A stretch of 64,000 nt of DNA. Source: Zanthoxylum bungeanum. Its lineage: Eukaryota > Streptophyta > Magnoliopsida > Sapindales > Rutaceae. Shown piece after piece: positions 6,715-45,670 of this stretch (within the stretch, counting starts at the first letter, position 1; each line of letters opens with the position of its first letter). Made by a program: the position numbers and the translations under genes. A model generated the notes under the pieces. It did not search any database. It saw only the letters and a program-made list of their open reading frames with translations, and was not told where the DNA came from. The DNA is taken from assembly GCA_019454045.1 (NCBI GenBank), contig SKCR01038133.1, forward strand, positions 62,001 through 126,000, in the 5' to 3' direction.

Positions 6715-7458
6715 TGACCGGTTTAAACACACACGTATAACGCAAGCGCACGTATCGTTCAAGTAGTATAAAAATATCGATCCCACGAGGACTTAATATC
6801 TAATCTATTAATTTTATGAGGTCGAATGATTACTAGTATTTAACAGGTTATTTGATTAATTTGAAATTGTGACGATTCTAAATTTAAAAACAAGTAAATA
6901 AAATTGTTCGAAAGTATGTTTTAAGAAAATTCAATATTAAAAACTATCTAGGGTTGTGATTTCTTTGCCATATCATTGTAAAGATGAAGTGGTTATCTTA
7001 TAGTTGTGTAAAATATTGATTTATTAACCTAGAACACTAAATTATGTAAAAGCCTCTTCCGATGGTCAACTACAAATATCCAGTATAACTCAATTGAACC
7101 ATATGTCTATGTCAATCAAATTACATAGATTCATTAAGATTAAGTTCCAATTATGGCTACTCCGCCCGACAGGTATATTCCTATCCTGTAAGGAAATCTA
7201 TTAAAGGGTTATCTATCCTCAAGGAAGATCGTGGGTTATAAGTCTAAGGTCTTAAACTTAAAATTCTTATGTCTAGTTCATTTTAAGTTTCCCAGTTCAA
7301 TTTTATTAATGGCCAGTTAATGAAAAACCATTAAGATTAAGACTCAATAAATAAATCTTTATATTACCCAAACTATAATCTAACCCTTTATAAACCGGTG
7401 ATATTGGATTTCATCACAACCCCAGATAATTGGCTTAGTTACGACACATATTTACGGG
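6715..7458 (-). repeat. Athila/Tat-type 3' LTR, first part
   Basis: This matches 22248-22987 almost base for base, including GTATAACGCAAGCGCACG and the run to ACGGG at 7454-7458. The alignment resumes at 15893. It is the end of the LTR in element orientation, opening TGACCGG on the + strand. Confidence 0.92.
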
Positions 7459-8142
7459 TGTAGGCACTGCATTTTTACACATAAAACCCTATGATGAGTC
7501 TCATTTTGGAGACACTACCATTCATCTCACGGAGGTCACGGGAAACGGACATCGGAAGGGGAAATTCAGAATAAACAAGGTTCACTGTTTTCGTTCGTGC
7601 TACGTTCGTGTTTACGTTCGAACGTCAAACGGATTGCGGGCGTTCGTGCCGCGTTCGAGGAAGCGTTCGAACGGTGTCGGTAATTCTGGTTTTGCTGCTA
7701 GCCTCACATCCAGCCCGATTAGCCCCCCAAAGCCCATAAAACACATCCCAATTTAAATGAATAAATATTAATTAAAACATTAACTAAATAAGATAATAAT
7801 TAAATTAATTAAATAATTAAATAAAAATATACCAAACATAAAATAAACAATTACCAACTAAACTAAAATCATGCCTAAATTAAACAAATCACACACTAAA
7901 TCAAAATATAATCATACCAAGATAAAATCAATCAACCAATTATATTCCCAATCTAATAAGATTATTCCCAAACTTAAAATATTGTATTCCTAATCCAAGC
8001 CAATCAAATATTCAACCTTCCCTATCTAGCCAAGATTTGTCCCCCCTCAATCTTTGACTTCCCTTAACCAAACCAAATCAAATCTCTTGACTTCCCTTAA
8101 CCAAACCAAATCAAATCCTTTCTTGTCAAGCCAACCCTTTGC

Positions 8143-8152
8143 CTATAAAAAG
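8143..8152 (+). promoter_or_regulatory. Putative LTR TATA box
   Basis: CTATAAAAAG lies in the left LTR about 680 bp from its start. It is the strongest TATA match in the LTR and is preserved at 14255-14264 in the right LTR. It probably marks the U3/R border. Confidence 0.55.
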
Positions 8153-9050
8153 AACCCTTCACCAACCTTCTCAACCCTAGCTAGCTAGCCCCTAACTCAT
8201 ACACAACACACATAAAAATTACAGGAGGAACACACCCAAGGAAACAATAAGCAAAAGATAAAGAGGAAAAGGCAGCGAAACACAAAGGAAATAATAGCAA
8301 AAGATAACGAACGAGAACAGTGAACCAGTGAACCAGGAGAGTTGCGGAGCATCCCCCCTTCCGACGATCGTGTACCGTACATCCGAGAGATGATTTAAAA
8401 GGTTAGACCTGAGGGTACCTTTTCATTAGTTTATATTCGTTTTATTATTATTATTATTGCATTCTATTCGCATGAGAGTCGTTTATGGAAGCATGTTGTG
8501 GCTTGAATGAAATGGAAGAGTGTCGTCTCTTGTGGTATATAGGATGGAAACCCAGACGTAAATTCCGTAGCCGAATCCGAATGGACGGTAGTGCGGTCTG
8601 TACATGGGACACAACTCCACGTACCACTTGAGTAAACGGCACATTCTCTTGTTTTGTGTTGCTTTTATGTATTTATTTTTGTCATTTAAATTCTGCATGT
8701 TGCTTATTATGCATGACTCAATCGAGCGCATGGGCTTAGTAAGTGCGATGTGAGATCCCCTATGGGGAGGGGTTAAAGCCCTTTACCACGATGCTTTGCC
8801 GCGCCGGTTGATGTGTGTTCGGTTGGACGCAAGACACGTTCAATCGGACATACTTAGGATAGTATGATTGTCTTTGTGTTTGTATGCATGATGTGATGTG
8901 ACGCGCATGGGCTTAGTATGTTGGTCTAAAGGTCCTCTCTTTGAGAGATCAAGAGCCCCCATAAGGCCACCTTTACGGCAGTACTTCGCCGCGCCCCCCT
9001 TTATTTTGATGTTTATGCATTTTTGCCCATTTCATGCATCAGGTCCGTGT

Positions 9051-9264
9051 CCGTTCGAACGCGTTCACGAACGCAATTCGAACGCGCATACATTTCGCCT
9101 TATCATGCATCAGGTCTCATTTCCGTTCGAACGCGTTAACAAACGCCATACGAACGTGAACATTCTGTTCCATTTCCGTTCGAACGCGTTTACGAACGCT
9201 ACTCGAACGCGAGCATTCTGTCTCTTCCGTTCGAACGCGTTTACGAACGCCACACGAACGCGCA
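9051..9264 (+). repeat. CpG-rich palindromic cluster in the LTR
   Basis: Four copies of the 10-bp palindrome CGTTCGAACG, each followed by CG and a diverged CGAACGC arm, are spaced about 50-75 bp apart. The same cluster is at 15159-15374 in the right LTR and, reversed, at about 63121-63390. In an AT-rich genome this is a striking concentration of CpG. Confidence 0.85.
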
Positions 9265-9782
9265 CACACTGAACCGAGTCTGTCTTATCGTGTTCATGCA
9301 TAATTGCCTCTTGGTTGATCTTTCTTGTGTTATATAGCCAACTGTATTATTTGTATTCAAGCATGATTAGGTTGCTAACATGTTATTGGTTAATAGGTTC
9401 ATGAGATAGTACTCAAGCATGATTATGTTGTTCTTAGTTTTCCATATCATAGGATTGAAATATGTTCATGAGATTGCCATGTGATGTTGCATGTTGTGAT
9501 GAACTTGTTGATGTATGCATATGAATTTAGAAGCATGATATCTTTGGAAATAATGTTATTTAAGCCTAGTTAAATTATCACATAAATCCTTTTATTACAA
9601 GTGACATAAGTAAGGGACCATTCCGAACCCAACGGTTTGAGGTCTTCCCTTGCGAGGGGTGAGTGCGGCCTTAAATCTTTGTCCCGGTTCACACCGGGTG
9701 GCGACTCCATGTTATTCAGTACTTCCCAAACTAGTGCCGCGAGCCTAGGAACGGCGTCGCCCAGGTCCTGTGTCCCACAGTC

Positions 9783-9800
9783 TGGCGACTCCACTGGGGA
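9783..9800 (+). other. Primer-binding site (PBS)
   Basis: TGGCGACTCCACTGGGGA begins three bases after the LTR end. It starts with the TGG complementary to a tRNA 3' CCA. As I recall, this is the primer site described for Ogre/Tat elements and assigned to tRNA-Arg. The tRNA identity was not checked. Confidence 0.85.
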
Positions 9801-10322
9801 TGTAAAGTTGGCCCCGAAATATTGTCTTGTAATGTTTGGATTCATGTTTTAATTGACCATGTCTATAGTGGATAAAGTAGGGGTTTAATCAAGGGCACTT
9901 TGAGGCTAGGTAATGGTTTGGTGTCTTCCTTCATTCACTACCTTTCTAGAAGGAAAAGCTGTGAAGGCACCTATATGGCCATCTACTTGTAGCCTTTGTG
10001 ATGGACTAATTTGGAGGACTCGTTGTTTATTCCTGACAACAAGCGATAAGAGCCTAAGAGGCTTGGGTATTTAAGTGAGCCTCGCTCCACCTTCCCTCTG
10101 GGGGATCTACAACGGGAAATCCATTTGACAGTCCGTCACACACCATAGCTCATTGGCACGTACCTTAGTGTATAAAAAGGGGTGCGCTCACTTGGTTGCT
10201 CAAACCCTTGAGTGGGGAGACCTAGTTGTGGGCCATCCTTCGCCGGTGAGAGCCTTTGTCTATACTCTTACTAACTCACCCATAGACCGGGTTGGCTAAA
10301 GTAGCAATTATTTTCTTGAGTA
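9801..10322 (+). other. Non-coding leader of the Ogre/Tat-like element
   Basis: No open frame of coding length. Sequence is unique within the window. Confidence 0.6.
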
Positions 10323-10790
10323 TGTGCTTGTGGACCATCCTCATTTGGATGCAGTTGGACTATTGTCAGAAATGCGGGCTTGCTGGGCCATTTAAACTGG
10401 GGCAAGTTTGTACCTTATGACTATTAGGCCCAAAGCTTCTGAAATGTTGATGGGCCACTTTGTAAAAAAATTATTATGTCATGTTTGCATCATTTTTTAT
10501 GCTTGTGTTTGGGAACATCGTTGTTTGGATCCATTTGGACCATTTATCATGGGATATGGGCTTGTTGGGCCATTTAAACTGGAACAAGAACACATCTTAT
10601 GACGATTGGGCCAAAAGGCTTCTAAATAACAGTGGGCCATTTTATGATTGTGTTCGGAATATTATCATTTGGATTTAGTTGGGCTCTTTGCCATAAGACA
10701 TGAACTCGTTGGGCCATTTAAACTGGGACGGGTTCACTTCTATGACAGTTGGCCCAAAAACTTCTAAAATGGTGATGAGCCGATTTGTGT
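10323..10790 (+). repeat. Three diverged tandem copies, about 145-180 bp
   Basis: Each copy contains a TCATTTGGAT-like block, GGGCCATTTAAACTGG, TATGAC, and GGCCCAAA or GGCCAAAA followed by CTTCT. Copies begin near 10323, 10505 and 10650. Divergence is clearly greater than between the two LTRs, so the duplication predates this insertion. Confidence 0.75.
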
Positions 10791-11139
10791 GAAAATTTTA
10801 ATGAGTTGATATATTTCTTGTATCGCATGCATATCATGCATCACATGCACCTCATGCATACATGCACCATGTTAACTCCCTTTTGATTTAAAAGCCATCA
10901 TAGATGCATGTTGGTTAGGGAAGATGACAGACTTGTCAAAAGACCAAGCAGCCACCAAGATACTGCTGGAAGAAGACCTAGCTCAATGGGATAGGAAACC
11001 CAATCATGCATGCATGCATACACGTAACACATTTTGCATCCCTTTTGTGTTTGTTCTGTTTTGTAATAACAGGTTTCAGAGAGAAAAAGAGAAAGCGGCA
11101 AAGACAAGACAACCAGAATCAGTAACATATGAGTAGTAG
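10791..11139 (+). other. Spacer between repeat blocks
   Basis: Contains ATGCATGCAT-type runs at 10825-10875 and 11008-11020. No gene seen. Confidence 0.5.
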
Positions 11140-11815
11140 TTTTGGGGATGAGTCCCAAGGTCGAGGCCCACATCGTCAGAGTGTTGGAATGAATCCCGGG
11201 GTTGAGGCCCATGTCAGCAATTTCAGAAATGAGTCACAGGGCGAGGCCCGTATCTGTATCAGTCTGGGGGCGGCCCATATCAATATCAGTTTAGGGCCGA
11301 GGCCCACATCAGCAGAATTTTGGAATGAATCCCAGGGCCGAGGCCCACATCAGCAGAATTTTGGAATGAATCCAGGGAATGAATCCCAGGGTCGAGGCCC
11401 ACATCAGCAGAATTTTGGAATGGATCCAGGGAATGAATCCCAGGGCCGAGGCCCGCATCAGCAAAATTTTGGAATGAATCCGAGGGTCGAGGCCCACATC
11501 AGCATCAATCTGGGGGCGAGGCCCATGACAGTAGCAGTTGGGGCCGAGGCCCACTTCAGCAATCAGTTTTGGGGATGAGTCCCAAGGGTCGAGGCCCACA
11601 TCAGCATCAATCTGGGGGCGAGGCCCATGTCAGTAGCAGTTGGGGCCGAGGCCCACTTCAACATCAGTTTTGGGGATGAGTCCCAAGGTCGAGGCCCACA
11701 TCAAACACAGTTTGGGAATGAGTCCCAGGGTCGAGGCCCACATTACATCAGTATCAGTCTTGCCGGGTATGGCATTCTGGGGGCGAGGCCCACATTACAT
11801 CAGATCAGTTCTGTC
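11140..11815 (+). repeat. Tandem array 1 (GAGGCCCACATCAG units)
   Basis: About a dozen irregular units of roughly 35-60 bp contain GGG(C/T)CGAGGCCCACATCAG. The central GGGCCGAGGCCC is self-complementary. The array is open in more than one frame only because it lacks stops. The encoded peptides are repeat artefacts. Confidence 0.85.
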
Positions 11816-11824
11816 GAGAATGGC

Positions 11825-12265
11825 ACTCCGAGAATGAAGATATAGTCCGGGAATGGACAGCTCGAGAATGAACAAGCCGAGAATGGCAATCCAAGAATGG
11901 AGCAGAGTTCAAGAATGAACAAGCCGGGAATGGCAATCCAAGAATGGAGCAGAGTTCAAGAATGAACAAGCCGGGAATGGCACTCCAAGAATGGAAGCAC
12001 GGTTCGGAAATGGACCACTCTCATATCAGTAACGGTTCGGAAATGGACCACTCTCTTATCAGCAATGGTTCAGAAATGGACCACTCTCATATCAGGCATG
12101 GTTCGAAATGGACTATCTCTCATCAGCAACGGTTCGGAAATGGACCATCATCTCACTAGCCGGAAATGGCACTCCGAAAATGGAGCACGGTTCGAAATGG
12201 ACCATCATCTCATCACTCGCCGAAAATGGCACTCCGAAAATGGAGCACGTTCGAAATGAACCATC
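11825..12265 (+). repeat. Tandem array 2 (GGAATGGCACTCC / GAAATGGACCA units)
   Basis: Repeats of about 35-50 bp alternate GGAATGGCA(C/A)TCC and TTCGGAAATGGACCA followed by CTCATATCAG. The CATATCAG tail is shared with arrays 1 and 3, which suggests a common origin by local amplification and divergence. Confidence 0.8.
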
Positions 12266-13345
12266 ATCGCAACAGTTCGGGAACAAAGCCCAGAGGAATA
12301 AAGCCTCATATCAGTATAAGTTTGAGAACAAAGCTCAAAGGGGAAGAAAGCCTCATGTCAGTACAGTCCGGGAATAAAGCTCGGGAGGAATAAAGCCTCA
12401 TATCAGCACAGTTCAGGAACAAAGCCCAGAGGAAGAAAGCCTCATATCAGTATAAGTTTGAGAACAAAGCTCAAAGGGGAAGAAAGCCTCATGTCAGTAC
12501 AGTCCGGAATAAAGCTCGGGAGGAATAAAGCCTCATATCAGCACAGTTCGGGAACAAAGCCCAGAGGAAGAAAGCCTCATATCAGTATAAGTTTGAGAAC
12601 AAAGCTCAAAGGGGAAGAAAGCCTCATGTCAGTACAGTTCGGGAACGAAGCCCAGGGGAATAAAGCCTCATATCAACACAGTTCGGGAACAAAGCCCAGG
12701 GGAAGAAAGCCTCATATCAATATAAGTTTGAGAACAAAGCTCAAGGGGAAGAAAGCCTCATGTCAGTACAGTTCGGGAATAAAGCCCAGGGGAATAAAGC
12801 CTCATATCAACACAGTTCGGGAACAAAGCCCAAGGGAATAAAGCCTTATATCAGTATAGTTTGAGAACAAAGCTCAAGGGGAAGAAGCCTCATGTCGGTA
12901 TAGTTCGGGAATAAAGCTCGGGAGGAATAGAGCCTCATCTCAACAGTTCGGGAATAAAGCTCGGGAGGAATAAAGCCTCATCTCAACAGTTCGAGAATAG
13001 AGCTCGGGATGAATAAAGCCTCATATCAGCACAGTTCGGGAACAAAGCCCAGAGGAAGAAAGCCTCATATCAGTATAAGTTTGAGAACAAAGCTCAAAGG
13101 GGAAGAAAGCCTCATGTCAGTACAGTCCGGGAATAGAGCTCGGGAGGAATAAAGCCTCATACCAGCACAGTTCGGGAACAAAGCCCAAAGGAAGAAAGCC
13201 TCATATCAGTATAAGTTTGAGAACAAAGCTCAAAGGGGAAGAAAGCCTCATGACAGTACAGTCCGGGAATAAAGCTCGGGAGGAATAAAGCCCCATATCA
13301 GCACAGTTCGGGAATAAAGCCCGGAGGAATAAAGCCTCATCTCAG
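12266..13345 (+). repeat. Tandem array 3 with higher-order structure (~136 bp)
   Basis: Subunits of about 43-46 bp, all ending AAAGCCTCAT(A/G)TCAG, occur in the order A-B-C. The B subunit (GTTTGAGAACAAAGCTCAA) starts near 12320, 12456, 12591, 12726, 12859, 13079 and 13215. Spacing is 133-136 bp apart from one 220-bp gap that holds extra C subunits. A 127-codon open frame at 12458-12841 is only the array read through. Confidence 0.9.
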
Positions 13346-13548
13346 TACAATACACGAAAGATGCCGAAAATGGCGCTCTAAAAATAGAGCACGGTTCGGG
13401 AATGAACCAGGGGTCGCAGCACCTCACCACCAAATCAACGCAACTCAACACATGGTAAGTCAAGTGGCAGCTGGCGAGCCAGGTAAGTAGAAATGCATTG
13501 CATAACTTTGATAGGATTGTCACTGTTGCACATTACACAAGTCCCATC

Positions 13549-13562
13549 AAAGTGGGGGCGAC
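13549..13562 (+). other. Polypurine tract of the Ogre/Tat-like element
   Basis: AAAGTGGGGGCGAC lies immediately 5' of the right LTR start (TGTAGGC). It matches the form typical of Ogre/Tat plus-strand primers. Confidence 0.85.
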
Positions 13563-15892
13563 TGTAGGCACTGCATTTTTACACATAAAACCCTATGATG
13601 AGTCTCATTTTGGAGACACTACCTTTTAAGTCACGGAGGTCACGGGAAACGGACATCGGAAGGGGAAATTCAGAATAAACAAGGTTCACTGTTTTCGTTC
13701 GTGCTACGTTCGTGTTTACGTTCGAACGTCAAACGGATTGCGGGCGTTCGTGCCGCGTTCGAGGAAGCGTTCGAAAGGTGTGGTGTCGGTAATCTGGTTT
13801 TGCTGCTAGCCTCACATCCAGCCCGATTAGCCCCCCAAAGCCCATAAAACACATCCCAATTTAAATGAATAAATATAATTAAAACATTAACTAAATAAGA
13901 TAATAATTAAATTAATTAAATAATTAAATAAAACATATACCAAACATAAAATAAACAATTACCAACTTAAACTAAAATCATGCCTAAATTAAACAAATCA
14001 CACACTAAATCAAAATATAATCATACCAAGATAAAATCAATCAACCAATTATATTCCCAATCTAATAAGATTATTCCCAAACTTAAAATATTGTATTCCT
14101 AATCCAAGCCAATCAAATATTTAACCTTCCCTATCTAGCCAAGATTTGTCCCCCCTCAATCTTTGACTTCCCTTAACCAAACCAAATCAAATCTCTTGAC
14201 TTCCCTTAACCAAACCAAATCAAATTCCTTTCCTTGTCAAGCCTAACCCTTTGCCTATAAAAAGAACCCTTCACCAACCTTCTCAACCCTAGCTAGCTAG
14301 CCCCTAACTCATACACAACACACATAAAAATTACAGGAGGAACACACCCAAGGAAACAATAAGCAAAAGATAAAGAGGAAAAGGCAGCGAAACCACAAGG
14401 AAATAATAGCAAAAGATAACGAACGAGAACAGTGAACCAGTGAACCAGGAGAGTTGCGGAGCATCCCCCCTTCCGACGATCGTGTACCGTACATCCGAGA
14501 GATGATTTAAAAGGTTAGACCTGAGGGTACCTTTTCATTAGTTTATATTCGTTTTATTATTATTATTATTGCATTCTATTCGCATGAGAGTCGTTTATGG
14601 AAGCATGTTGTGGCTTGAATGAAATGGAAGAGTGTCGTCTCTTGTGGTATATAGGATGGAAACCCAGACGTAAATTCCGTAGCCGAATCCGAATGGACGG
14701 TAGTGCGGTCTGTACATGGGACACAACTCCACGTACCACTTGAGTAAACGGCACATTCTCTTGTTTTGTGTTGCTTTTATGTATTTATTTTTGTCATTTA
14801 AATTCTGCATGTTGCTTATTTATGCATGACTCAATCGAGCGCATGGGCTTAGTAAGTGCGATGTGAGATCCCCTATGGGGAGGGGTTAAAGCCTTTACCA
14901 CGATGCTTTGCCGCGCCGGTTGATGTGTGTTCGGTTGGACGCAAGACACGTTCAATCGGACATACTTAGGATAGTATGATTGTCTTTGTGTTTGTATGCA
15001 TGATGTGATGTGACGCGCATGGGCTTAGTATGTTGGTCTAAAGGTCCTCTCTTTGAGAGATCAAGAGCCCCCATAAGGCCACCTTTACGGCAGTACTTCG
15101 CGCCCCCTTTATTTTGATGTTTATGCATTTTTGCCCATTTCATGCATCAGGTCCGTGTCCGTTCGAACGCGTTCACGAACGCAATTCGAACGCGCATACA
15201 TTTCGCCTTATCATGCATCAGGTCTCATTTCCGTTCGAACGCGTTAACAAACGCCATACGAACGTGAACATTCTGTTCCATTTCCGTTCGAACGCGTTTA
15301 CGAACGCTACTCGAACGCGAGCATTCTGTCTCATTTCCGTTCGAACGCGTTTACGAACGCCACACGAACGCGCACACACTGAACCGAGTCTGTCTTATCG
15401 TGTTCATGCATAATTGCCTCTTGGTTGATCTTTCTGTGTTATATAGCCAACTGTATTATTTGTATTCAAGCATGATTAGGTTGCTAACATGTTATTTGGT
15501 TAATAGGTTCATGAGATAGTACTCAAGCATGATTATGTTGTTCTTAGTTTTCCATATCATAGGATTGAAATATGTTCATGAGATTGCCATGTGATGTTGC
15601 ATGTTGTGATGAACTTGTTGATGTATGCATATGAATTTAGAAGCATGATGATATCTTTGGAAATAAATGTTATTTAAGCCTAGTTAAATTATCACATAAA
15701 TCCTTTTATTACAAGTGACATAAGTAAGGGACCATTCCGAACCCAACGGTTTGAGGTCTTCCCTTGCGAGGGGTGAGTGCGGCCTTAAATCTTTGTCCGG
15801 TTCACACCGGGTGGCGACTCCATGTTATTCAGTACTTCCCAAACTAGTGCCGCGAGCCTAGGAACGGCGTCGCCCAGGTCCTGTGTCCCACA
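13563..15892 (+). repeat. Right (3') LTR of the Ogre/Tat-like element
   Basis: Near-identical to 7459-9779, including the TATA-like site (14255-14264) and the CpG palindrome cluster (15159-15374). It ends CCCACA at 15892, followed by the ACGGG duplication. Confidence 0.93.
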
Positions 15893-15897
15893 ACGGG

Positions 15898-16891
15898 TAG
15901 TAAAAAAAAAAAACTAAATAAAATAAAAGACATAAAGTAAAATATTGAAAATTAAATACTGAAAAGTAAATTGCTGAAAAGTAAATTGCTGAAAGTAAAT
16001 TACTGAAAAGTAAATGCTGAAAATAAATTACTGAAAAGTAAATGCTAAAAGTAAATTGCTGAAAATTAAAGAAAGAAAAGTAATGTGCATAAAAGTAAAT
16101 TACGTAAAGTAAAAATTGAAAAGTAAAGAAAAGAAAGTGCGAAAGCGGAAATTAATTACTGAAAGCTGTAAATAAACAAACAAGATACAATCTTCCTAGT
16201 ATTCTTAAGGAATTCCTTAGAAGAAAGTATGAATTTTACAAATGAAATGGTTTGGTATTTATAGGCAAAATTTTGCCTCCATCAAATCATCCACCAAATC
16301 AATTATGAATTGCTCCACTAATTGCTCCACTAATTGTTCCACCAAATCCATTATTAATTGCTCCACTAATCTCTTATCATGTTTGGTGATGATTTGATCA
16401 TTTTTATTATTTATTTATTTATTTATTTTTTTGCTTTGAAAATGATTGAAAGTGACTTTAATAATACACACAACACACTTCTGGATGGTTCATCAACTTC
16501 GGGCATGAAATCGTCAGAATTCGAAATTATTTTGTCTTTCAAAGCTGTAGATCTTCGAGTCGTCTTTAATCTGGAACTTGAATCAGCTCAATCCGATATC
16601 AGAGTAAAAAAGTTTTCCCAAAATACAACAGATGCGCAAAATTGGAATTTCCAAAACTGCACTTCGTCAAAAACGCCCTTTCAAGTTTCCAATCTCCAAA
16701 ATTAAAATATCAAGTCCAATAATTACCCTTATTTGACCCATATTTCGTCCTAAATGATTTCATTGAGATCCGATAGTATTTTATCGTGCAAAATAAACTA
16801 AACACATCAAAACGTTCATCAAACCCGAGAAACTAAACAAAATATTTAGTTAAAGGGGCGGTAAATATTGATATATTTTCCGCTCATCACA
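15898..16891 (-). repeat. Athila/Tat-type 3' LTR, second part
   Basis: Continues the interrupted LTR. It aligns with 22988-23566 up to about 16476 and then extends some 415 bp that the truncated right LTR lacks. On the minus strand it begins TGTGATGAGCGG, directly after the polypurine tract. The block 15905-16165 is built of GAAAAGTAAATTGCT-like short repeats. Confidence 0.88.
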
Positions 16892-16929
16892 CCACCCCAA
16901 CCTAACATTTTGCTAGTCCTCGAGCAAAA
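16892..16929 (-). other. Polypurine tract with upstream hairpin
   Basis: On the minus strand a perfect 7-bp stem (TTTTGCT / AGCAAAA, loop with CGAGGACT) is followed by TTAGGTTGGGGTGG and then the LTR start TGTGATG. The polypurine tract and LTR junction fit Athila/Tat-type elements. A similar hairpin plus purine module recurs at 18118-18157. Confidence 0.85.
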
Positions 16930-18117
16930 CAATAAAATAAAATACAAGAACAATTAAATTAAACTAAGTCACTTTCGTAGGGATCACGTTGCATTTAGCA
17001 TATGCAACAAGCCTTTAAACCCCTAGGTGTCCCTAGTGGACGAGTTATAGTCTCGTGAGGGCTTACAGCAACGATACCCACAAACGTTTTAAAAAAGTAA
17101 AAAGGTAGTGAAACTAATGCACACAAAATCAAAAAGACAAGAGAAAAGAGAATAAAGGAAGTTAGTGACTAATCAGGTGAAACTTCTACTCCAAGTTACT
17201 AGTTGTTTTGTTTCTTCTCTAAACAAATTTCTAATTACCGAATAAGTAAATTCTCCGATTATATTTATCATTCTCCATATACACACCCAACAAGTATTAA
17301 TCAATCTCATTTTTAACCACAACAGTCACAAATGTAGTTGAAAGAGAGTAATATTTTGTCCTAAAGTTCTATCAGATTTCACACCTTTTTTATGGCAATG
17401 GAATATTTTTTCTGATTTTTTCTGATTTTTTTTTTTTTATTTTTTTATTTATATACAATATCTTCCATCTATGTAACGAGTATTAGGTCGGTAGCTCCCA
17501 AACCAGTTGGCTTTAGGGCACCAGGTGTTAAGACACCCCTACGGACTTAATTACTCAGACTTCAGATATATATATATTTGCAGCATCTTTGATCCATCTA
17601 GCGAGCTTTGGGCCAGTGACTCCCAAACCAGTTGGTTTTAGGGCACTAAGTGTTAAAACACCCTTACAGACTTAATAACTCGGATCTCAGATTTTTTTTT
17701 TTACTCCATCACTTTTTGAGATGTTTTCTCCAATTAAACTAGAGCACTAAATATTATAAACTTTTCAATTACAACTCATGTTTGTATGTTACTATGCATG
17801 TTGATAATATCTGCTAATTGAGCATATGAAGATCATTTTTTAGTCAGTATTATGGAGAATTCACAATTTAAATAATTCAAAAGGAAATAAACAAAAATTA
17901 ACTTGTTCCGATTTAGGTTTGAGATACGTCTCAGGAGTGAAAACTCATCACTGCTATCTCTTACCAATTTCACCTTTTTAGTCAAAATAAAAACACAAAA
18001 ACAAAATATTTTTGTGTATTTTTGAAAAATTTTCAATTTTTTTTGTATTTTTTCGAAAAAATTTGGACTAAAAATAAAACAACACACAAACTAAAAACAA
18101 GGTACTGATCAACTAAT
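16930..18117 (-). other. Long 3' non-coding region of the Athila/Tat-type element
   Basis: Between the two purine modules there is no convincing gene. An 84-codon minus frame at 17833-18087 is low-complexity and hydrophobic and resembles nothing I know. The segment contains a diverged duplication (separate entry). Confidence 0.6.
17465..17693. repeat. Two diverged ~110-bp tandem copies
   Basis: Copies at about 17465-17570 and 17588-17693 share CTCCCAAACCAGTTGG, TTTAGGGCAC, GTGTTAA and ACAC CC..ACGGACTTAA-like blocks in the same order. They are separated by short AT-rich spacers. Confidence 0.8.
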
Positions 18118-18157
18118 TCCCTCCCCCAAACCTAAATTAGACATTGTCCCCAATGTC
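18118..18157 (-). other. Second hairpin plus polypurine module
   Basis: On the minus strand GACATTG-GGGA-CAATGTC forms a perfect 7-bp stem with a 4-base loop. It is followed by TTTAGGTTTGGGGGAGGG. Order and spacing parallel the true polypurine tract at 16892-16929. It could be a second plus-strand primer or a remnant of an earlier element end. It lies about 60 bp downstream of the LOG stop codon. Confidence 0.6.
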
Positions 18158-18217
18158 TTAAAAAGTAGAAGAAGAGTTTAGAAAATAATACCTGGTTAGC
18201 TGAAATTCTATAGGAAA

Positions 18218-18873
18218 TTAAAGGTTAAGATCCAGATTAACACGACGCCTCTTACCACGATCGTCCTCGGACCAATTTATCTTTGAAAGGATATAGTCAA
18301 CTCGTGATTCATAGGCTATGAGTTGGTCTATTAGATCCGGAGCAGTTCTGGCAGTAAAGAGAAGTTCTTTCAAAGGTTTTGACACGAACCCATTTCTCCT
18401 CTCCGGCATCATCAAGAAACACACAAAGAAAATCATAAATCCATCAACGTTGTACAACCCAATTGGTTTCTGGTGTATGTTCAGGTTCGCCCAAGATAGC
18501 ACAATAAAAATTTCCTCCAATGTACCAAGCCACCTGGCAAAGCAATAAAAGTATCAGCACAGTTAATCATTTCTACCAAACGTTCATACATACCTGCCAC
18601 GATCAGTTCCTCTCCGTTTGATGGTTCAATAAGATTTGCTTCTGCCATGGGTTTTGGGATGATTCCCAAAACGTGACTGCCTCCTTCTTGTACAGCTTTT
18701 GAAACGATCCCCATAAGTCCAAGATTGCCTCCGCCATATACTAAGTGCATATTCCTTGCAGCTAAGACTCGACCCAATTCATGTGCTGCTTCTACGTATT
18801 GTGGCATAGTACCGACACTAGTACCGCAAAACACACAGATGTTCTCAATTCGTCTTCTTGAAGTGGCTTCCAT
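18218..18873 (-). pseudogene. LOG: Captured LONELY GUY (LOG) cytokinin-activating enzyme, frameshifted
   Basis: LOG enzymes are cytosolic phosphoribohydrolases that release active free-base cytokinins from cytokinin riboside 5'-monophosphates. The first frame (from MEATSRRR, with another ATG upstream at 18912) shows ICVFCGTS, the phosphate-binding LVYGGGNLGLMG and FIALPGG. A single missing base near 18525 then moves the frame. The second frame carries LEEIFIVLSWA and KPIGLYNVDGF, so the signature PGGxGTxxE spans the break. It ends at 18218 after about 215 residues, the usual LOG length. Host LOG genes have several introns as I recall. This copy has none, which fits capture from mRNA. The lysine of the usual RK pair (here MYERLVEM) is replaced by leucine, and the C-terminal third diverges from typical LOGs. 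It lies between the unknown ORF and the 3' end of the retroelement, in the same orientation. Confidence 0.88.
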
Positions 18874-18941
18874 TTTTATATGTATTTCTTTCTCAACTCT
18901 GGATGCCTTCAAAAGTGCAATGACGGGCTGAATTTATAGTA

Positions 18942-18965
18942 CCTGAAAAAGGTGAGTAAAAATAG
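18942..18965 (-). promoter_or_regulatory. Splice-acceptor-like site upstream of the LOG copy
   Basis: On the minus strand a T-rich stretch ends CTTTTTCAG followed by GTACTATAAA, about 30 bases before the first possible ATG and 70 before the preferred one. The same CAG/GT pattern precedes the other two coding units. Confidence 0.4.
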
Positions 18966-19132
18966 CACAAGTATCTTCCAGAGGACGATTAGTAGCGAAA
19001 TAATATCGTGATAGTCAAAAAGGTCTGGATCCTGTCGGAGAAAATAAAAGAAAACAACAAAACAAATTACAATTATTAAGAAAAGACAAAGAGATATAAT
19101 ATTTACAAGAAAAGTAATGGCTTGATTGACGT

Positions 19133-19684
19133 CTATGCGTCAGGGACAAGCTTCCCATCCAATTTTCTTATAAACTGGCAAACATGGTCTTTTTGAGTCA
19201 GATTCCCAAGACTTAATTGTTGTCTTTCTTTTTGGAATTGTGTATGTAATTTACGAATGGCTATGTGAACATATCCACTAGGATGCGTCTCAAGAGTTGA
19301 AGATATATCATCTAAAGACTCCTTACTCAAGCCATCCCTAATGAATTTAATTTTATCTTCGCGATTATCAGACACCATTCCTAAAGAACGACAACGAGAA
19401 TTGCAATTCCAGCGTGCACATTTGTAACAAACACCCATTTGCTTAGCTCTACGTTTCTTTGCATAGGTGTTTCTTCCAAAACCAGGCAGATGTGAAATAA
19501 AAGAGTCAGAAGACTCACCTGCCAATCGGACCCGTGCTTCAATTAACCAACGAATGTCAGTAGGAATACCTTTAATCATCAGTAATCTCATCCGTTCCAA
19601 GCGAGCTTTGTAAACTTTCATCAGAGATTTTTTTTGAGGGAGAGAAGGAAATTGCTTGCGAAGATTTGCGATAGCTTCTTTCAT
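19133..19684 (-). CDS. Accessory ORF of the retroelement, 183 aa, unknown function
   Basis: I do not recognise this protein. The start at 19684 (MKEAIANLRK) is preferred because a splice-acceptor-like site ends 16 bases upstream. A longer reading from 19735 would translate the T-rich tract as a hydrophobic leader. The product is basic. Residues 1-60 look helical (LRKQFPSLPQKK, KARLERMRLL). A cysteine cluster CYKCARWNCNSRC (C-x2-C-x4-C-x3-C) follows near residues 100-112, preceded by KKRRAKQ, and the C-terminus is helical and charged. The cluster suggests metal or nucleic-acid binding, but this is inference. The frame is intact, unlike the adjacent LOG copy. It sits directly downstream of the integrase C-terminal end, where Athila-type elements carry an env-like ORF. 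No transmembrane segment is seen. Confidence 0.65.
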   Translation of the reverse strand: MKEAIANLRKQFPSLPQKKSLMKVYKARLERMRLLMIKGIPTDIRWLIEARVRLAGESSDSFISHLPGFGRNTYAKKRRAKQMGVCYKCARWNCNSRCRSLGMVSDNREDKIKFIRDGLSKESLDDISSTLETHPSGYVHIAIRKLHTQFQKERQQLSLGNLTQKDHVCQFIRKLDGKLVPDA

Positions 19685-19700
19685 CTTGAAATGACTAAAC

Positions 19701-19730
19701 CTGCAAAAATTAAACACACAAAAAATAAAA
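19701..19730 (-). promoter_or_regulatory. Splice-acceptor-like site upstream of the accessory ORF
   Basis: On the minus strand a strongly T-rich tract ends TTTTTGCAG followed by GTTTAGTC, 16 bases before the ATG at 19684. By base composition it is the best acceptor in the element. Confidence 0.5.
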
Positions 19731-19761
19731 CACACCAGATCACAATATATACAAAAATTGC

Positions 19762-19785
19762 ATGGGTTGCCTCCCTGCTAGCGCT
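19762..19785 (-). other. Conserved Athila/Tat motif downstream of integrase
   Basis: On the minus strand AGCGCTAGCAGGGAGGCAAC and the following CCAT fall shortly after the integrase stop codon. From memory, an AGCGCT...GGGAGGCAACCCA block occurs at the same place in many plant Athila/Tat elements. Its role is unknown to me. It helps classify the element. Confidence 0.7.
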
Positions 19786-19823
19786 AAGTTTAGAGTCGTC
19801 AACCAGACTTGACTTCTCGAACG

Positions 19824-22129
19824 TTAAGCTGGATCTGAAAGTGTAACACTTTCTTTTTGTCGCTCAAATGATTCTCCCCAGTTGTGCTTGACACTCTTGT
19901 TTTTAACCTTGAAAGTCTTATTGGAGTCAGGATCATGTATCTCAACGGCTCTATTTGGTAAAACTTTGGTGATCACAAATGGACCTGACCACCGTGATTT
20001 TGGCTTCCATGGGAAGAATTTCACCCTTGATTTGTTTAACAGTACCTTCTGCCCTGGTTTCCAGTGTATGCGCACTAATTTCTCATCTTGTCTCTTCTTG
20101 GCCTTTTCTTTGTACAATTTGGCATCCTCAAAAGGCTGATTGTGAAATTCCTTCAATTCGTTGAGCTGGTGGAACTTTTTCTCTTCTGTTGCTTGTAGTG
20201 CAAGAATTGGCTTCTTCAGTACAAAAGACGCTTTATCTTTAGGCTCCACAGGCAATTGACATGTTTTAAGTTTGTCAGTAGAACTTTGTCTTTCATCAGA
20301 GTTCTGAACGGTGCTGTGTATCACATCAAGTCTGAAACATTCCTCATTCTTTTCATCATCTGGAAAATTCATGGCTTTGAAAACATTGAATGTTATTTCT
20401 TGGTCTTGTACCCTCATGGTTAGTTCTCCTTTTTGTACATCAATAATGGTTCGACCTATAGCCAAGAATGGTCTCCCGATGATGATTGGCACGTCTGCGT
20501 CTTCCTCCATATCAAGGACAATAAAATCTGCTGGGAAAATGAATTTGTCAACCTTGACCAGCACATCCTCAACTACGCCTCTTGGAAATACGAGCGTTCT
20601 ATCAGTAAGTTGTAGTGAGACTGAAGTTGGCATTGTTTCTTCAATATGTAATTTCCTGAAAATAGAAAAAGGCATCAAGTTAACACTCGCACCTAGATCA
20701 TACAGAGCCTTACCGAAGTCATGTTCTCCTATGGTGCAAGGAACAGTGAAACTTCCAGGATCTTTCAACTTTGGGGGAAGTTTCCTCTGAATGATAGCGC
20801 TGCATTCTTCTGATAATGTTACTGTCTCGTAATCTCTCAATCTCCACTTTCGTGAAAGAATGTCTTTCATGAATTTGGCATAGCTGGGCATTTGTTCTAA
20901 CGCTTCTGCAAATGGAATGTTGATATGCAGCCTTTTAAAGATCTCCAGGAACCGAGAAAACTGCTTGTCCAATTTATTCTTCTGAAGACGTTGAGGAAAA
21001 GGTGGAGGTGGAGTGATCTGTTCTTTTTCCTTTGCTTCTTTTTCCTCCATCTGTTGCTTTGTTTCTTTTGGAATTTCCTCAACAACTGTTTTGGCTCCAA
21101 CATCTTTGTTGATTTCAGTACCGCTTTTTAACATGATGGCATGACATTGCTCATTCCCCATGTTTCTTGGATTTGGCTCTGTGTTGCTAGGAAGGGTACC
21201 TGGCGGTCTGTAACTCTGAGCATTTGCCAGTTGTCCAATTTGATTCTCCAGTGCTTTAATAGAAGCAGATTGACCTTGAATTAATGCTGCTTGGGATTGA
21301 AACATAGCATCATATCTTGCTGCTTGGGATTGAAACATAGCATCATATCTTGCTGCTTGAGATTGAAATATAGTATCATATCTTGCTGCTTGAGAGTCAT
21401 GTTTTGCTTCTATCTTTTTCAAGTGGGTCAACACTTCTGTTATTCCTGGTTCATTTGCCTGCTCCTGGCTTTTGTTCTGTTGTTGGAATCCAGGTGGTGG
21501 ATAGTTCTGCTATTGGCCTGAATTGTTGCTCCATGATAAATTAGGATGATTCCTCCACCCTGGGTTGTAGGTGTTGGAATATAGATTGTTCCCCTGTCTG
21601 TTGAAATTATTGACAAAATTCACTGTTTCTTCAAGTTGGTTCGACTCTGGTGCTCCTCCATATGGTGAACTTGTGGATCCAGTAGTAAAAGTCTCCATGA
21701 ATTTGCATATCTGATCTAGCTTGGCGTTGACTGTTGTATTGGCTCCACTTTCATAAATTCCTGCAATTCTTTGGATCATGCTCCTTTCTGTTGGCCACAA
21801 GGAATTGTTGTTGGTCATTTCTTCGATTAGGTCCCAGACTTGATCTTCTCCTTTTTCCATTAAAGCTCCTCCAGCAGCAGCATCGATTGTGGTTCTCATT
21901 ATTCCAGAAAGCCCATTATAGAATGTTTGGACTTGAAGCCATTTTGGAATCTCATGGTGAGGACATTTCCGAAGTAAATCTTTGTACCTTTCCCAAGCTT
22001 CGCAGAGGGATTCTGAATCTTATTGTACAAAGGATGTGATGTCATTCCTCAGTTTTTCGATTCTGGCTGGTGAAAAGTACTTTGCAAGAAATTTGGTGGC
22101 TAAAGTGTTCCAAGTTGTAGTTTATGAGA
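19824..22129 (-). pseudogene. Truncated gag, protease and integrase C-terminal domain
   Basis: In element order: a gag remnant with CEAWERYKDLLRKCPHHEIP and the plant-gypsy gag signature LIEEMTNNNSLWPTER; a coiled-coil region with an 11-residue repeat (AARYDAMFQSQ); a proline-rich hinge; the aspartic protease with ALYDLGASVNLMP and IIIGRPFLA; then, without a stop, the integrase C-terminal domain (RWSGPFVITK, WKPGQKVLL). Reverse transcriptase, RNase H and the integrase core are missing between about residues 410 and 425 of the 536-codon frame 19824-21434. Two in-frame stops break gag: TAA at 22020-22022 and TAG at 21510-21512. The gag N-terminus is also deleted, because the primer site lies only about 100 bases upstream. 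The product could at best supply gag and protease. Confidence 0.9.
21283..21405 (-). repeat. 33-bp tandem repeat inside gag
   Basis: Three to four in-frame copies encode the 11-residue unit AARYDAMFQSQ. The copies nearest the middle are almost identical, so the expansion is recent. Confidence 0.85.
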
Positions 22130-22131
22130 AC

Positions 22132-22165
22132 CTGAAACACAAGAAAACAAAAACAATAAGTAAAA
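22132..22165 (-). promoter_or_regulatory. Splice-acceptor-like site upstream of gag
   Basis: On the minus strand a long T-rich tract ends TTGTGTTTCAG followed by GTTCTC, between the primer site and the remaining gag sequence. Confidence 0.45.
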
Positions 22166-22223
22166 AGAAATTAGATACAAGTAACGTATCTAACCCCAAA
22201 ACTAATAGTGAAAGATAAATAAG

Positions 22224-22241
22224 TCTCCGACAACGGCGCCA
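22224..22241 (-). other. Primer-binding site, tRNA-Asp type
   Basis: On the minus strand TGGCGCCGTTGTCGGAGA follows the 5' LTR end by a few bases. TGGCGCCGTTG is the primer site usual in plant Athila/Tat elements, attributed to tRNA-Asp. Confidence 0.85.
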
Positions 22242-22247
22242 AAAACT

Positions 22248-23566
22248 TGACAGGCGTAAACACACACGTATAACGCAAGCGCACGTATCGTTCAAGTAGT
22301 ATAAAAATATCGATCCCACGATGACTTAATATCTAATCTATTAATTTTATGAGGTCAAATACTAGTATCTAACAGGTTGTTTGATTGATTTGAAATGGTG
22401 ACGATTCTAAATTTAAAAACAAGTAAATAAAATTGTTCAAAAGTAGGTTTTAAGAAAATTCAATATTAAAAACTATATAGGGTTGTGATTTCTTTGCAAT
22501 ATCATTTTAAAGATGAAGTGGTTATCTTATAGTTGGGTAAAATATTGATTTATTAACCTGTAACACTAAATTATGTAAAAGCCTCTTCCGATGGTCAACT
22601 ACAAATATACAGTATAACCCTATTGAACCATATGTCTATGTCAACCAAATTACCTGGATTCATTAAGATTAAGTTCCAATTATGGCTACCCCCCGCCCGA
22701 CAGGTATATTCCTATCATGTAAGGAAATCTATTAAAGGGTTATCTATCCTCAAGGAAGATCGTGGGTTATTGAGTCTAAGGTCTTAAACTTAAAATCCCT
22801 ATGTCTAGTTCATTTTAAGTTTCCCAGTTCAATTTTATTAATGGCCATTTAATGAAAAAGCATTAAGATTAAGACTCAATAAATAAATATTTATATTACC
22901 CAAGCTATAATCTAACCCCTTATAAACCGGTGATATTGGATTTCATCACAACCTCAGATAACTGGCTTAGTTACGACACATATTTACGGGTAGTAAAAAA
23001 AACTTAAATAAAATAAAAGACATAAAGTAAAATACTGAAAATTAAATACTGAAAATTAAATACTGAAAAGTAAATTGCTGATAAGTAAATTGCTGAAAGT
23101 AAATTACTGAAAAGTAAATGCTGAAAATAAATTACTGAAAAGTAAATGCTGAAAGTAAATTGCTGAAAATTAAAGAAAGAAAAGTAATGTGCATAAAAGT
23201 AAATTACGTAAAGTAAAAACTGAAAAAGTAAAGAAAAGAAAGTGCGAAAGCGGAAATTAATTACTGAAAGCTGTAAATAAACAAACAAGATACAATCTTC
23301 TTAGTATTCTTAAGGAATTCCTTAGAAGAAAGTATGAATTTTACAAATGAAATGGCTTGGTATTTATAGGTAAAATTTTGCCTCCATCAAATCATCCACC
23401 AAATCAATTATTAATTGCTCCACTAATTGCTCCACCAAATCCATTATTAATTGCTCCACTAATCTCTTATCATGTTTGGTGATGATTTGATAATTTTTAT
23501 TATTTATTTATTAATTTATTTTCTTGCTTTGAAAATGATTGAAAGTGACTTTAATAATTACACACA
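22248..23566 (-). repeat. Athila/Tat-type 5' LTR, truncated
   Basis: Matches the split left LTR over 1.3 kb with a few percent difference by eye. Similarity stops at about 23566, so roughly 415 bp of the LTR start, including the probable promoter region, is missing. The element could not transcribe itself from this LTR as it stands. Confidence 0.88.
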
Positions 23567-24289
23567 ATTTAAATTACAAATAAGTTTTTAAATAATTTAA
23601 ATTAATTTCCTGATAAATTTTTCAATCATTCGGAATTCGGATACCAATCCCTTCGGAGATCCGTTTTTATTATTTGGGAATACCAAAATTTCATAAAATA
23701 TAGATGTCAATCCTCCCACGTCATTACCATTGCTTGTAACAGGAGACCATACACATCATGAGAGTAGGACATTTTGGTCATATTTTATAAACCAAAAGCA
23801 CTTTGGAACGAAGCATTTTGTTTTTCACTTTTCACTTACAAAAAGTCGTATTTCTAAAGCGAAGTCCCCATCGGTTCACAAATGGACAATTTTGATCATA
23901 TTTTCAAATTCTCTAAATGCTAGTCTCAATCTGTCTACCAAAAGCTATTCCCTTTCTAAATCACACTGCAATAATATCTCACTTTCAAGGGTATATATGA
24001 CTTTTCCCAACTCATTTGTCATCAATACTGGGGTACGGATTACAGGAGCAACGAACGGGCTTTGATCCGCTGCATTCGTTCGGCGTTGCGCTCCTGGTCA
24101 AACTCAGTTCGATCTCACCTCCGTTTGCGAATCAGAAAATTTAGGCTCACCTGACAACTTTATTTTTTTTTTTTATCAAATTGAAAACATTGTAACACTT
24201 ATAAATAACTATTATATGAATGGCGAATATTTGTCCAATAATGAGTAGGGATATCAAAAATCTCAAATCTCATTCAAGATTTCGTATAA
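23567..24289. other. Intergenic sequence
   Basis: No gene or repeat structure recognised. A 111-codon frame at 23730-24065 lacks any motif and is probably chance. Confidence 0.5.
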
Positions 24290-28800: not shown

Positions 28801-30735
28801 AGCAGAAAAGTTGGTGGTTGAGAGGGTGGCAAAAAGTGGATCCCTAAAGAAAATAAAGTCACCTATCAGTGCTACTTCATATACCGTTGCTTCTCTCCAA
28901 ACAGCTACAAATAGCTTTAGTCAAGAATTTCTTATTGGTGAAGGTTCACTTGGTCGTGTTTACAGAGCAGAGTTTTCCAATGGGAAGGTAATATGTCATG
29001 CTATAATCTGTGTGAAACTAATTATTTTCCTGTGCCCCATAATGATTAGAAAGGGATGCAAAAGATTTTGTTAGTGATTGTGATCTCAACTCAGGGTTGC
29101 TTCTGCAGTGGAAATCAGCGTCGTCCTTCAACAAACTCCTCTCTTTAGTTTTGTTCTTTTTTTCTTTTTAATTTTAATTTCTGGTGATATTTGATATGAT
29201 TATGACATCATCATTTCAACTGTTAAGTTTAGCTTCTGGCAATACTATCACTTGATTATTTTCTTTGGTCATGTTTCATATATTTATTACAGTAACGATC
29301 TAATCATTTCGTGTTTGGTTTGATTGTGAACTAGATAATGGCTGTTAAGAAGATCGACAATGCGGCACTCTCATTACAGGAAGAAGATAATTTTCTGGAA
29401 GCTGTTTCTAATATGTCACGCTTGAGGCACCCGAACATTGTTACACTGGCTGGATATTGTGCAGAGCATGGCCAACGTCTTCTGGTGTATGAATATGTTG
29501 AAAATGGTAGTCTCCATGATATGCTGCACTTTGCTGATGATAGCAGCAAGAACCTGACTTGGAATGCACGAGTTAGGGTAGCACTAGGCACTGCTCGGGC
29601 TCTAGAGTATGTTACATGTGTATGCCATTTTAAGTCTCTCTCTTGTTCTGCTACATTAGAGGATCCATGGGTGATTGAGGTGAATTTCCTTTCTTAACTA
29701 TAGCTTTATCTATCAGGTACTTGCATGAAGTATGCTTGCCTTCTGTTGTACATAGAAATTTCAAGTCGGCAAACATTTTACTTGATGATGAGCTCAATCC
29801 CCACTTGTCAGATTGTGGTTTAGCTGCTCTAACACCAAACACTGAGAGAGAGGTGATCAACTGGAACAGTATAACAATTTTCTATTTCTAGGATTTGCTT
29901 TTTCTTTGTCTTTTCTCGTATTCAAGCTTGACAAATTCCGTTCTCTTCATGTTTGACAGGTTTCAACACAGATGGTTGGTGCATTTGGTTATAGCGCTCC
30001 TGAATTTGCATTGTCCGGAATATTCACTGTAAAAAGTGATGTGTACAGTTTTGGAGTGGTCATGTTAGAGTTGTTGACCGGTCGGAAGCCACTGGACAGG
30101 TACACCTTTTACTAGATTACTGAATCTTTTGTAATTTTTCTCTCTGAATAGTTCTAATGCTGTGTGCAAATTTCTGGTAGTTACATGTGTGGTGCTGCAA
30201 TTCTTGTATGTGTAGTTCAAGGCCAAGATCAGAGCAGTCACTTGTGAGATGGGCTACTCCACAGCTACATGATATAGATGCGTTGGCCAAAATGGTTGAT
30301 CCTGCCTTGGATGGCATGTATCCTGCAAAGTCTCTGTCACGTTTTGCCGACATTATTGCTTTATGTGTTCAGGTGGACCTTTTTTCATTTTTAAACTAAT
30401 GCTAACGTATATTAAGCTTAGCTTTTTAAGGTTTTTAGCTAATTGAATAGAATAAAATTTAAAATCTCTTTATTTATCCGAATCTGCTGTCTCATAGTTC
30501 CAATGAAGATGTTATCTCTGAAATAGAAGAATCTTTTCTGCTGCTAAGAAATGCTCATCTAAACTTTGTTTATTCTGTGTAGCCGGAACCTGAGTTTCGG
30601 CCACCCATGTCGGAAGTTGTGCAAGCACTGGTACGGTTAGTACAAAGGGCAAGTGTGGTCAAAAGGCGTTCCAGTGATGAATCAGGATTTTCCTATAGGA
30701 CCCCAGATCATGAGACTATCGACACATTATTTTAA
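25893..30735 (+). CDS. SRF: SRF-type LRR receptor-like kinase (LRR-V), 16 exons, frameshifted in exon 7
   Basis: Plasma-membrane receptor-like kinase of the STRUBBELIG family, closest by eye to SRF6/SRF7. Exons: 25893-26022, 26414-26546, 26665-26736, 26869-26934, 27026-27097, 27193-27264, 27549-27618, 27713-27778, 27854-27919, 28038-28342, 28734-28987, 29335-29606, 29717-29852, 29960-30099, 30216-30372, 30583-30735, all with GT-AG introns and consistent phase. Order: signal peptide; SRF N-terminal region ([20 protein letters not shown]); leucine-rich repeats, one per 66-72-bp exon; a proline/serine-rich stretch; a transmembrane helix ([20 protein letters not shown], about residue 305); a kinase domain from about 416. 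The kinase is atypical: HRN replaces HRD and DCG replaces DFG, as in STRUBBELIG-type pseudokinases. Exon 7 is 70 bp instead of 72 and hits TAA at 27583-27585. All other exons are clean. About 721 codons if that exon were full length. Confidence 0.93.
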
Positions 30736-45667: not shown

Positions 45668-45670
45668 AAA

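Follow-up and report, generated by a model that had tools for sequence, protein, structure and literature searches.

Extra genes are common in plant retrotransposons and are mostly of unknown origin. Two Athila-like elements with an open reading frame (ORF) similar to LOGL4 were reportedly described by Steinbauerova et al. in Genetica in 2011, and the LOG-bearing elements of Citrus and Populus are said to belong to the Athila lineage and to carry LOG at the 3' position. PMC9289625, citing that study, already documents LOG/YgdH genes for Citrus and Populus Ty3/gypsy elements, and PMC12172455 reports nucleic-acid binding for the cysteine-rich proteins of flexiviruses and describes them as silencing suppressors, that of chrysanthemum virus B being a transcription factor that causes hyperplasia. 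Here we describe a Ty3/gypsy long terminal repeat (LTR) element in a 64,000-nucleotide stretch of Zanthoxylum bungeanum DNA (assembly GCA_019454045.1, contig SKCR01038133.1, positions 62,001 to 126,000 of the forward strand; hereafter, the window), which carries a LOG-type gene and, beside it, a gene for a protein resembling the nucleic-acid-binding proteins (NABPs) of flexiviruses. The initial annotation of the window had presented the transduction of LOG by such an element as unusual; the Citrus and Populus elements remove that novelty. Our analysis indicates that the window probably holds a defective copy of a very abundant Athila-like family with two selected accessory genes, one NABP-like and the other a LOG of old lineage.

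The LOG-like and NABP-like genes

The two genes lie on the minus strand, downstream of an integrase remnant:

18218..18873, minus strand: LOG-like gene; ATG at 18873, intronless, with a frame change at about 18520-18536 in the window copy
19133..19684, minus strand: NABP-like gene; 183 codons, open, with Cys at 86, 89, 94 and 98 preceded by a basic stretch

Two overlapping minus-strand frames, 18481-18933 and 18218-18553, together make up a single LOG-type gene. The first matched the Pfam families LDcluster4/Lysine_decarbox with E-values of 2.7e-13 and 2.8e-12 and the second with 3.3e-10; against Arabidopsis LOG3 (PDB 2a33), the E-values were 2.7e-32 and 1.7e-14, with 59/120 and 32/90 identical residues, respectively. 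These minus-strand matches bear out the LOG landmarks and the intronless frame named in the initial annotation. The first part alone passed the subfamily cut-off of NCBIfam TIGR00730 (99.3 versus 96.35 bits), and it scored 72.7 bits against the cut-off of 300 for CtkRMPhLog, for which only this part of the protein was scanned. A frame of at least 150 codons, the length of the first part, was reached in 47 of 500 first-order Markov resamplings of 16474-22247; the LOG frame is therefore unremarkable in length and stands out by its homology.

The reading frame changes inside the PGGxGTxEE motif, and the window copy of LOG is frame-broken, in agreement with the earlier claim that a base is missing at the catalytic motif: 52 of 64 loci differ from the window at this site by a frame-keeping length, and 12 share the window state. 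The break may be a sequencing error in the window copy. Its use as a subfamily marker was rejected, as loci with the window state are scattered in the copy tree (branch support unexamined).

The initial annotation overlooked the second open frame, 19133-19684, between the integrase remnant and LOG. It had placed LOG in sense between that remnant and the 3' polypurine tract; the orientation and the position downstream of the gag-protease/integrase C-terminal remnant stand, but the NABP-like frame intervenes and the purine-rich stretch does not adjoin the LTR. A frame of at least 214 codons, the stop-to-stop length of this frame, was found in none of the same 500 resamplings, so that it stands out by length. 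In the window copy, the NABP frame is open while the LOG frame is broken.

The NABP-like protein matched Viral_NABP (PF05515; E-value 8.9e-6, 26.3 bits versus a cut-off of 23) and Carla_C4 (PF01623; 5.2e-5, 23.6 bits versus 20.9), with no further Pfam family at E-values up to 10, and the alignment spans residues 36-121 of 183. Both families were matched by all 15 open NABP copies scanned (E-values up to 0.001; best, 5.4e-7 and 1.3e-6), and by none of nine shuffles in which the Cys residues were kept, for which the best chance match to any family was 0.0014. The motif in the window reads KKRRAK, a basic run of the nuclear-targeting type, followed by the zinc-finger pattern C-x2-C-x4-C-x3-C, and its four Cys are invariant in 15/15 copies. 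A PDB search with the protein gave no match. These results suggest that the NABP-like protein is probably homologous to the zinc-finger NABP/cysteine-rich proteins of plant flexiviruses.

Abundance of the family and selection on its accessory genes

The assembly searched comprises 3.956 Gb in 51,709 contigs; the 150 candidates scored per repeat query were the best-scoring ones, and the choice of loci to examine followed their similarity to the window. The LOG query gave 59,806 first-look candidates, the best 150 of which scored 80-100% identical to the window's LOG, and the NABP query gave 45,971, the best 150 of which scored at 91-100%, with 125/150 stop-free. With AtLOG3 as the query, there were 58,205 first-look candidates, and all of the best 150 were full-length intronless LOG frames at 48-51%, 139 of them stop-free. 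The control, a piece of a host BAH-domain gene, gave 43 first-look candidates and 20 matches. Since only 150 candidates were scored per repeat query, these counts do not give exact copy numbers; the family is nevertheless very abundant, with first-look candidates in the tens of thousands. The initial annotation had allowed that no other copy of the element might carry LOG; the assembly search, the locus layouts and the AtLOG3 search all revealed others that do.

Selection was assessed by comparing singleton variants, which mostly arose after insertion, with variants present in at least three copies, which were mostly inherited through moving elements. Copies with less than 90% coverage were dropped, identical copies were collapsed, and the sample was ranked by similarity. 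In NABP (51 distinct copies including the window), the ratio of nonsynonymous to synonymous variants (N/S) was 57/26 among singletons and 20/27 among shared variants (odds ratio 2.96, p 0.005); in LOG (61 distinct copies including the window), the values were 102/35 and 29/32 (odds ratio 3.22, p 0.0003). The effect remained without CpG/CHG transitions (NABP, p 0.035; LOG, p 0.0006) and when sharing was defined as at least two copies (p 0.024 and 0.001, respectively). After LOG was split by frame state, it was found in both classes (p 0.016 in 12 copies; p 0.0076 in 49 copies). The integrase C-terminus, used as a positive control in 34 copies, gave N/S of 46/10 versus 30/32 (p 0.0002), with two wrong frames null. 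None of ten wrong sense or antisense frames of NABP and LOG showed the effect at p <0.05, LOG frame +2 going the opposite way (p 0.024), and five of six non-coding control frames were null; a coding signal was absent from all three frames of 17800-18100. In both genes, as in integrase, amino-acid changes make up a smaller proportion of the shared variants than of the singletons. These results show that, in the sampled copies, NABP and LOG were under purifying selection during the spread of the family.

The element and its relatives

LOG is carried by one minus-strand Ty3/gypsy LTR element, which extends from 23566 to 6715 in its reading direction and is recognizable by its LTRs, primer binding site (PBS), gag and protease:

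22248..23566, minus strand: 5' LTR, first ~0.5 kb missing; a longer 5' LTR is found in L055 and L056
22224..22241, minus strand: PBS TGGCGCCGTTGTCGGAGA, read directly
21510..22019, minus strand: gag remnant, N-terminal part missing; Retrotrans_gag, 1.7e-5
20241..21509, minus strand: gag tail and aspartic protease remnant; Asp_protease_2 E-value 0.0093, below the Pfam cut-off
19824..20240, minus strand: integrase C-terminal remnant, read in the gag-protease frame; 34 distinct copies show constraint here
18119..18155, minus strand: purine-rich stretch, read directly; probably the 3' polypurine tract of the initial annotation
17010..18118, minus strand: non-coding stretch from the purine-rich stretch to the 3' LTR; boundaries deduced
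15898..17009, minus strand: 3' LTR, 5' part; 15901-16473 matches 23005-23567, and the start probably lies near 17009
7459..15892, strand unassigned: younger nested LTR element in the 3' LTR, not part of the LOG-bearing element
6715..7458, minus strand: 3' LTR, outer 3' part; 6715-7462 is 94.4% identical to 22248-22995 in self-comparison

The comparable parts of the 5' and 3' LTRs are 96.2% identical over 1301 columns (Kimura two-parameter distance 0.040), which at a rate of 1.3e-8 per site and year corresponds to about 1.5 million years. The 5' LTR of L055 and L056 is ~1.9 kb long, so that of the window is truncated at 23566; in these two loci, it continues into homology to 17002-16474, which places the LTR start near 17009. 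Inspection of the LTR ends revealed no target-site duplication at the outer ends of the element. In all six of the loci L051-L056, TGGCGCCGT directly follows the 5' LTR and ~440 nt extra is present at the place of the gag N-terminus, a loss in the window that none of them shares. The surroundings of the purine-rich stretch were fully covered in 20/20 NABP loci. We take the PBS to be tRNA-Asp-like and the motifs DLGAS and IIIGRPFLA in 20241..21509 to be protease-like; 19824..20240 is presumably an integrase C-terminus, named from its motifs, and in the relative L053 it comes after the integrase core.

The window copy has no reverse transcriptase (RT), RNase H or integrase core, and its gag-protease joins the integrase C-terminus directly; it is probably a defective, non-autonomous copy. 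Gag-protease also adjoins the integrase C-terminus in 16 of 20 NABP loci. The wider stretches (L051-L054) of the four exceptions (L042, L043, L045 and L046) have ~2.7 kb between the two; Pfam identified RT and RNase H in both stretches scanned (L051 and L053), and the integrase core and a full gag domain, in separate frames, in L053. L053 holds RT, RNase H, the integrase core, gag and NABP, and the overlapping L045 adds LOG; the family therefore exists in both a short and a pol-bearing form, each with the extra genes. The window's two LTRs and PBS, together with gag, RT, RNase H and rve in this order and in separate frames of L053, place the element in Ty3/gypsy. We assume an Athila-like lineage from the layout, the PBS and the gag-protease motifs. 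An additional (archaeal-type) RNase H was not found in the scanned frames of L053, which has frame breaks.

The integrase remnant, NABP and LOG were all present in 20/20 NABP loci (the window included, as L031), and the order integrase remnant-NABP-LOG is visible in LOG loci. Among 30 LOG loci (the window being L001), NABP was full in 17, partial in two and absent within 1.5 kb in 11; it is therefore not required by every LOG carrier. The NABP-free loci carry other frames upstream and apparently make up another type of carrier of this LOG lineage. Three of these loci (L017:1-1041, L018:1-678 and L027:168-1031) have different long frames upstream of LOG, and four frames from these three gave no Pfam match above cut-off.

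Elsewhere in the window, the nested element 7459-15892 has 2.3-kb LTRs that are 99.3% identical and a 5-bp duplication, ACGGG; it contains short tandem repeat arrays at ~11.2-13.4 kb, has frames of at least 120 codons only in its LTR or repeats, and shares parts of its LTR with 62460-64000. A receptor-kinase gene, presumably of the STRUBBELIG type, has exons at 28033-29697. A piece of a host BAH-domain gene at 39421-39786, which we take to be EBS-like, has four copies in the assembly at 97-100%, suggesting polyploidy or unmerged haplotypes. A 2-kb direct repeat, 94% identical, occupies 43662-45670 and 50502-52527.

Origin, function and comparison with known systems

A 74-residue AtLOG3 query of the assembly gave 158 matches, and those listed include 19 at 66-94%, 16 of which begin at residue 24 or 25, as is typical where an intron border lies; other listed matches read through that border at 49-53%. 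A TTTTCAG acceptor precedes the host LOG exon in L082, and host LOG exons 88-94% identical to AtLOG3 start at an intron border that the element LOG reads through. Across 48 residues, identity to two host LOG exons was 33-38% for five element copies and 56%, over fewer residues, for a sixth, partial one (L045); between the two exons it was 88%. Given host LOGs that appear to contain introns and reach no more than 33-38% identity over one exon, the element LOG is, on sequence grounds, an old, diverged LOG lineage and not a recent retrocopy. A recent retrocopy of a host LOG inserted into one element would account for an intronless gene beside host genes with an intron border; however, the low identity to the host exons, the separate long branch that the element LOG forms in each of two small trees and its presence across the family make this explanation extremely improbable. 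The initial annotation had raised the alternative of an independent retrocopy with a poly-A tail; no poly-A tract follows the LOG stop and the same flanking element sequence occurs in other copies, so the gene is not a lone retrocopy, and this candidate was rejected. A single IMG/VR scan revealed no viral relative of the element LOG, and a single scan of genome contigs for a bacterial origin, which covers close relatives only, gave only four bacterial LOGs, at 32-43%. Separately, a host-like LOG at G000:C2730:2279-2500 and C42560:158930-159151, 70% identical to AtLOG3, is continuous across the usual intron border; this pair would be an intronless LOG paralogue or a retrogene, distinct from the element LOG.

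The proposed catalytic residues of C. glutamicum LOG are Arg99 and Glu122, and its prenyl pocket comprises Met96, His97, Lys100, Glu125 and Trp129 (PMC4979012). The window LOG keeps the proposed catalytic Arg and Glu and has Met, Tyr, Leu, Ile and Trp in the pocket. PGGLGTLEE was found in eight of nine element LOG frames of at least 180 codons. The Met-x-x-Arg site, matched in six open frames, reads GMSERL in all six, with Ser and Leu at the places of His97 and Lys100. The Glu125 place is Ile in 7/8 and Val in 1/8 open frames, and Glu occurred there in 0/38 frames with the motif under a wider pattern, some of which may be shifted or repeated places. A LOG-type reaction is plausible, with an uncertain substrate. 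That the protein is a true cytokinin riboside monophosphate phosphoribohydrolase raising local cytokinin seems doubtful: the catalytic pair, PGGxGTxEE and the constraint on the gene are consistent with it, but the changed pocket leaves the label "cytokinin-activating", used in the initial annotation, unsupported.

NABP and LOG occupy the place where retroviruses keep env and accessory genes. Both may have entered by template switching during reverse transcription, LOG via an mRNA, as its lack of introns would suggest, and NABP from a flexivirus-type RNA. The two proteins would be translated from spliced subgenomic RNAs, for which candidate acceptors were ranked by an approximate weight matrix:

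18942..18962, minus strand: predicted splice acceptor, 69 nt ahead of the LOG start codon; rank 5/477 AG sites; AG kept in 70/73 copies
19700..19720, minus strand: predicted splice acceptor, 16 nt ahead of the NABP start codon; rank 2/477; AG kept in 61/63 copies

Of the other acceptor-like sites, one at 22131, ahead of the gag remnant, ranked first, one 158 nt before the LOG ATG third, and one at 20655, within gag-protease, fourth. The NABP would bind nucleic acid and perhaps blunt host silencing or act on transcription like its viral relatives, and the LOG-like enzyme would cleave a nucleoside monophosphate, which may not be a cytokinin precursor; in combination, the two could render host cells more permissive or more proliferative. 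We tentatively consider, as a possibility short of an even chance, that NABP and LOG were acquired as a matched accessory pair, combining interference with silencing or transcription with nucleotide or cytokinin chemistry that keeps cells dividing, and that the pair helped the family to reach its very high copy number.

Several observations weigh against the reading of a defective Athila-like copy with two selected accessory genes. An open LOG frame of at least 180 codons was present in only 21 of 60 distinct copies examined and an open NABP frame in 32 of 50; sampling followed protein similarity to the window; 11/30 LOG loci lack NABP within 1.5 kb; and frame 0 of the intergenic stretch 19132-18876 (gap2) gave N/S of 40/4 versus 6/7 (p 0.001, with small counts), so the selection test is not perfectly clean. 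This frame continues the NABP frame past its stop, and its signal reflects chance or a missed extension. Three of the five prenyl-pocket residues expected of a cytokinin-specific LOG (His, Lys and Glu) are changed. The AGs of the predicted acceptors are conserved no better than background AGs, so that expression of NABP and LOG from spliced RNAs stays a hypothesis. The NABP match is modest (E-values of 1e-5 to 5e-7), a single-sequence AlphaFold prediction for this protein was unusable (pLDDT 39.7), and one IMG/VR scan found no viral relative of it.

The broken frames, the scattering of the window's LOG frame state over the copy tree, the NABP-free loci, the sampling and the gap2 signal would all fit passenger cargo, that is, genes that hitchhike without function in a successful non-autonomous family, the pattern arising from biased sampling. 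We regard this as unlikely, since the signal appeared in the true frames of NABP, LOG and integrase and in 0/12 wrong or antisense frames, the shared variants fall mostly at codon position 3 in NABP (26/50; less clearly in LOG, 30/66), and most of the best-scoring copies of both genes are stop-free. Likewise, the NABP-like frame could encode a zinc-finger protein of the retroelement or the host whose resemblance to viral NABP stems from composition or convergence; chance matches arise easily for basic proteins with Cys residues, and the likeness was judged from Pfam profiles. Two Pfam models above their curated cut-offs, the lack of any other family, the agreement among copies and the failure of the shuffles argue against this explanation, which we consider improbable. 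The reading of two selected accessory genes therefore remains our preferred one; it is suggestive of gene flow linking RNA viruses with retrotransposons, and of a LOG lineage whose pocket has been remodelled. With recognizable kinship and purifying selection in the sampled copies, the two genes make the use of accessory genes by plant retroelements testable. If the matched-pair proposal were true, a plant retroelement would have assembled retrovirus-like accessory functions from viral and host parts.

Like the Citrus and Populus elements, the Zanthoxylum element is a Ty3/gypsy element with a LOG-type extra ORF; relative to their published description, it adds NABP beside LOG, tens of thousands of first-look candidates, a measurement of selection and a changed pocket. 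A NABP-type gene or a NABP-LOG pair in retrotransposons was not found in the literature searched (few subscription journals, no supplements), and "carla" is absent from the main text of PMC9289625. The Phalaenopsis Ty3/gypsy element with an AlkB m6A demethylase, treated in passages of the same paper, is similar in that a captured enzyme gene is kept as an extra ORF; the enzyme is a different one, with activity shown in vitro. The NABPs of carlaviruses, allexiviruses and mandariviruses, as outlined in part of PMC12172455, share PF05515, PF01623 and a basic stretch followed by a Cys cluster; in contrast, the protein here is encoded by a retrotransposon, its function is predicted, and the alignment covers only residues 36-121 of 183. 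Extra ORFs, env-like or otherwise, are also known from the Athila lineage (PMC6317226): the layout is non-chromovirus-like with extra ORFs between pol and the 3' LTR, the PBS is of a type used by non-chromoviruses, and no extra RNase H was seen in the frames of L053 that were scanned. The same paper calls an env-like function of plant retrotransposon extra genes "rather speculative". That survey (Neumann et al. 2019) counted only extra ORFs of at least 250 codons, a threshold that genes of 183 and about 218 codons do not reach; compared with the elements that it covers, the element described here carries two small extra genes with recognizable non-env kinship.
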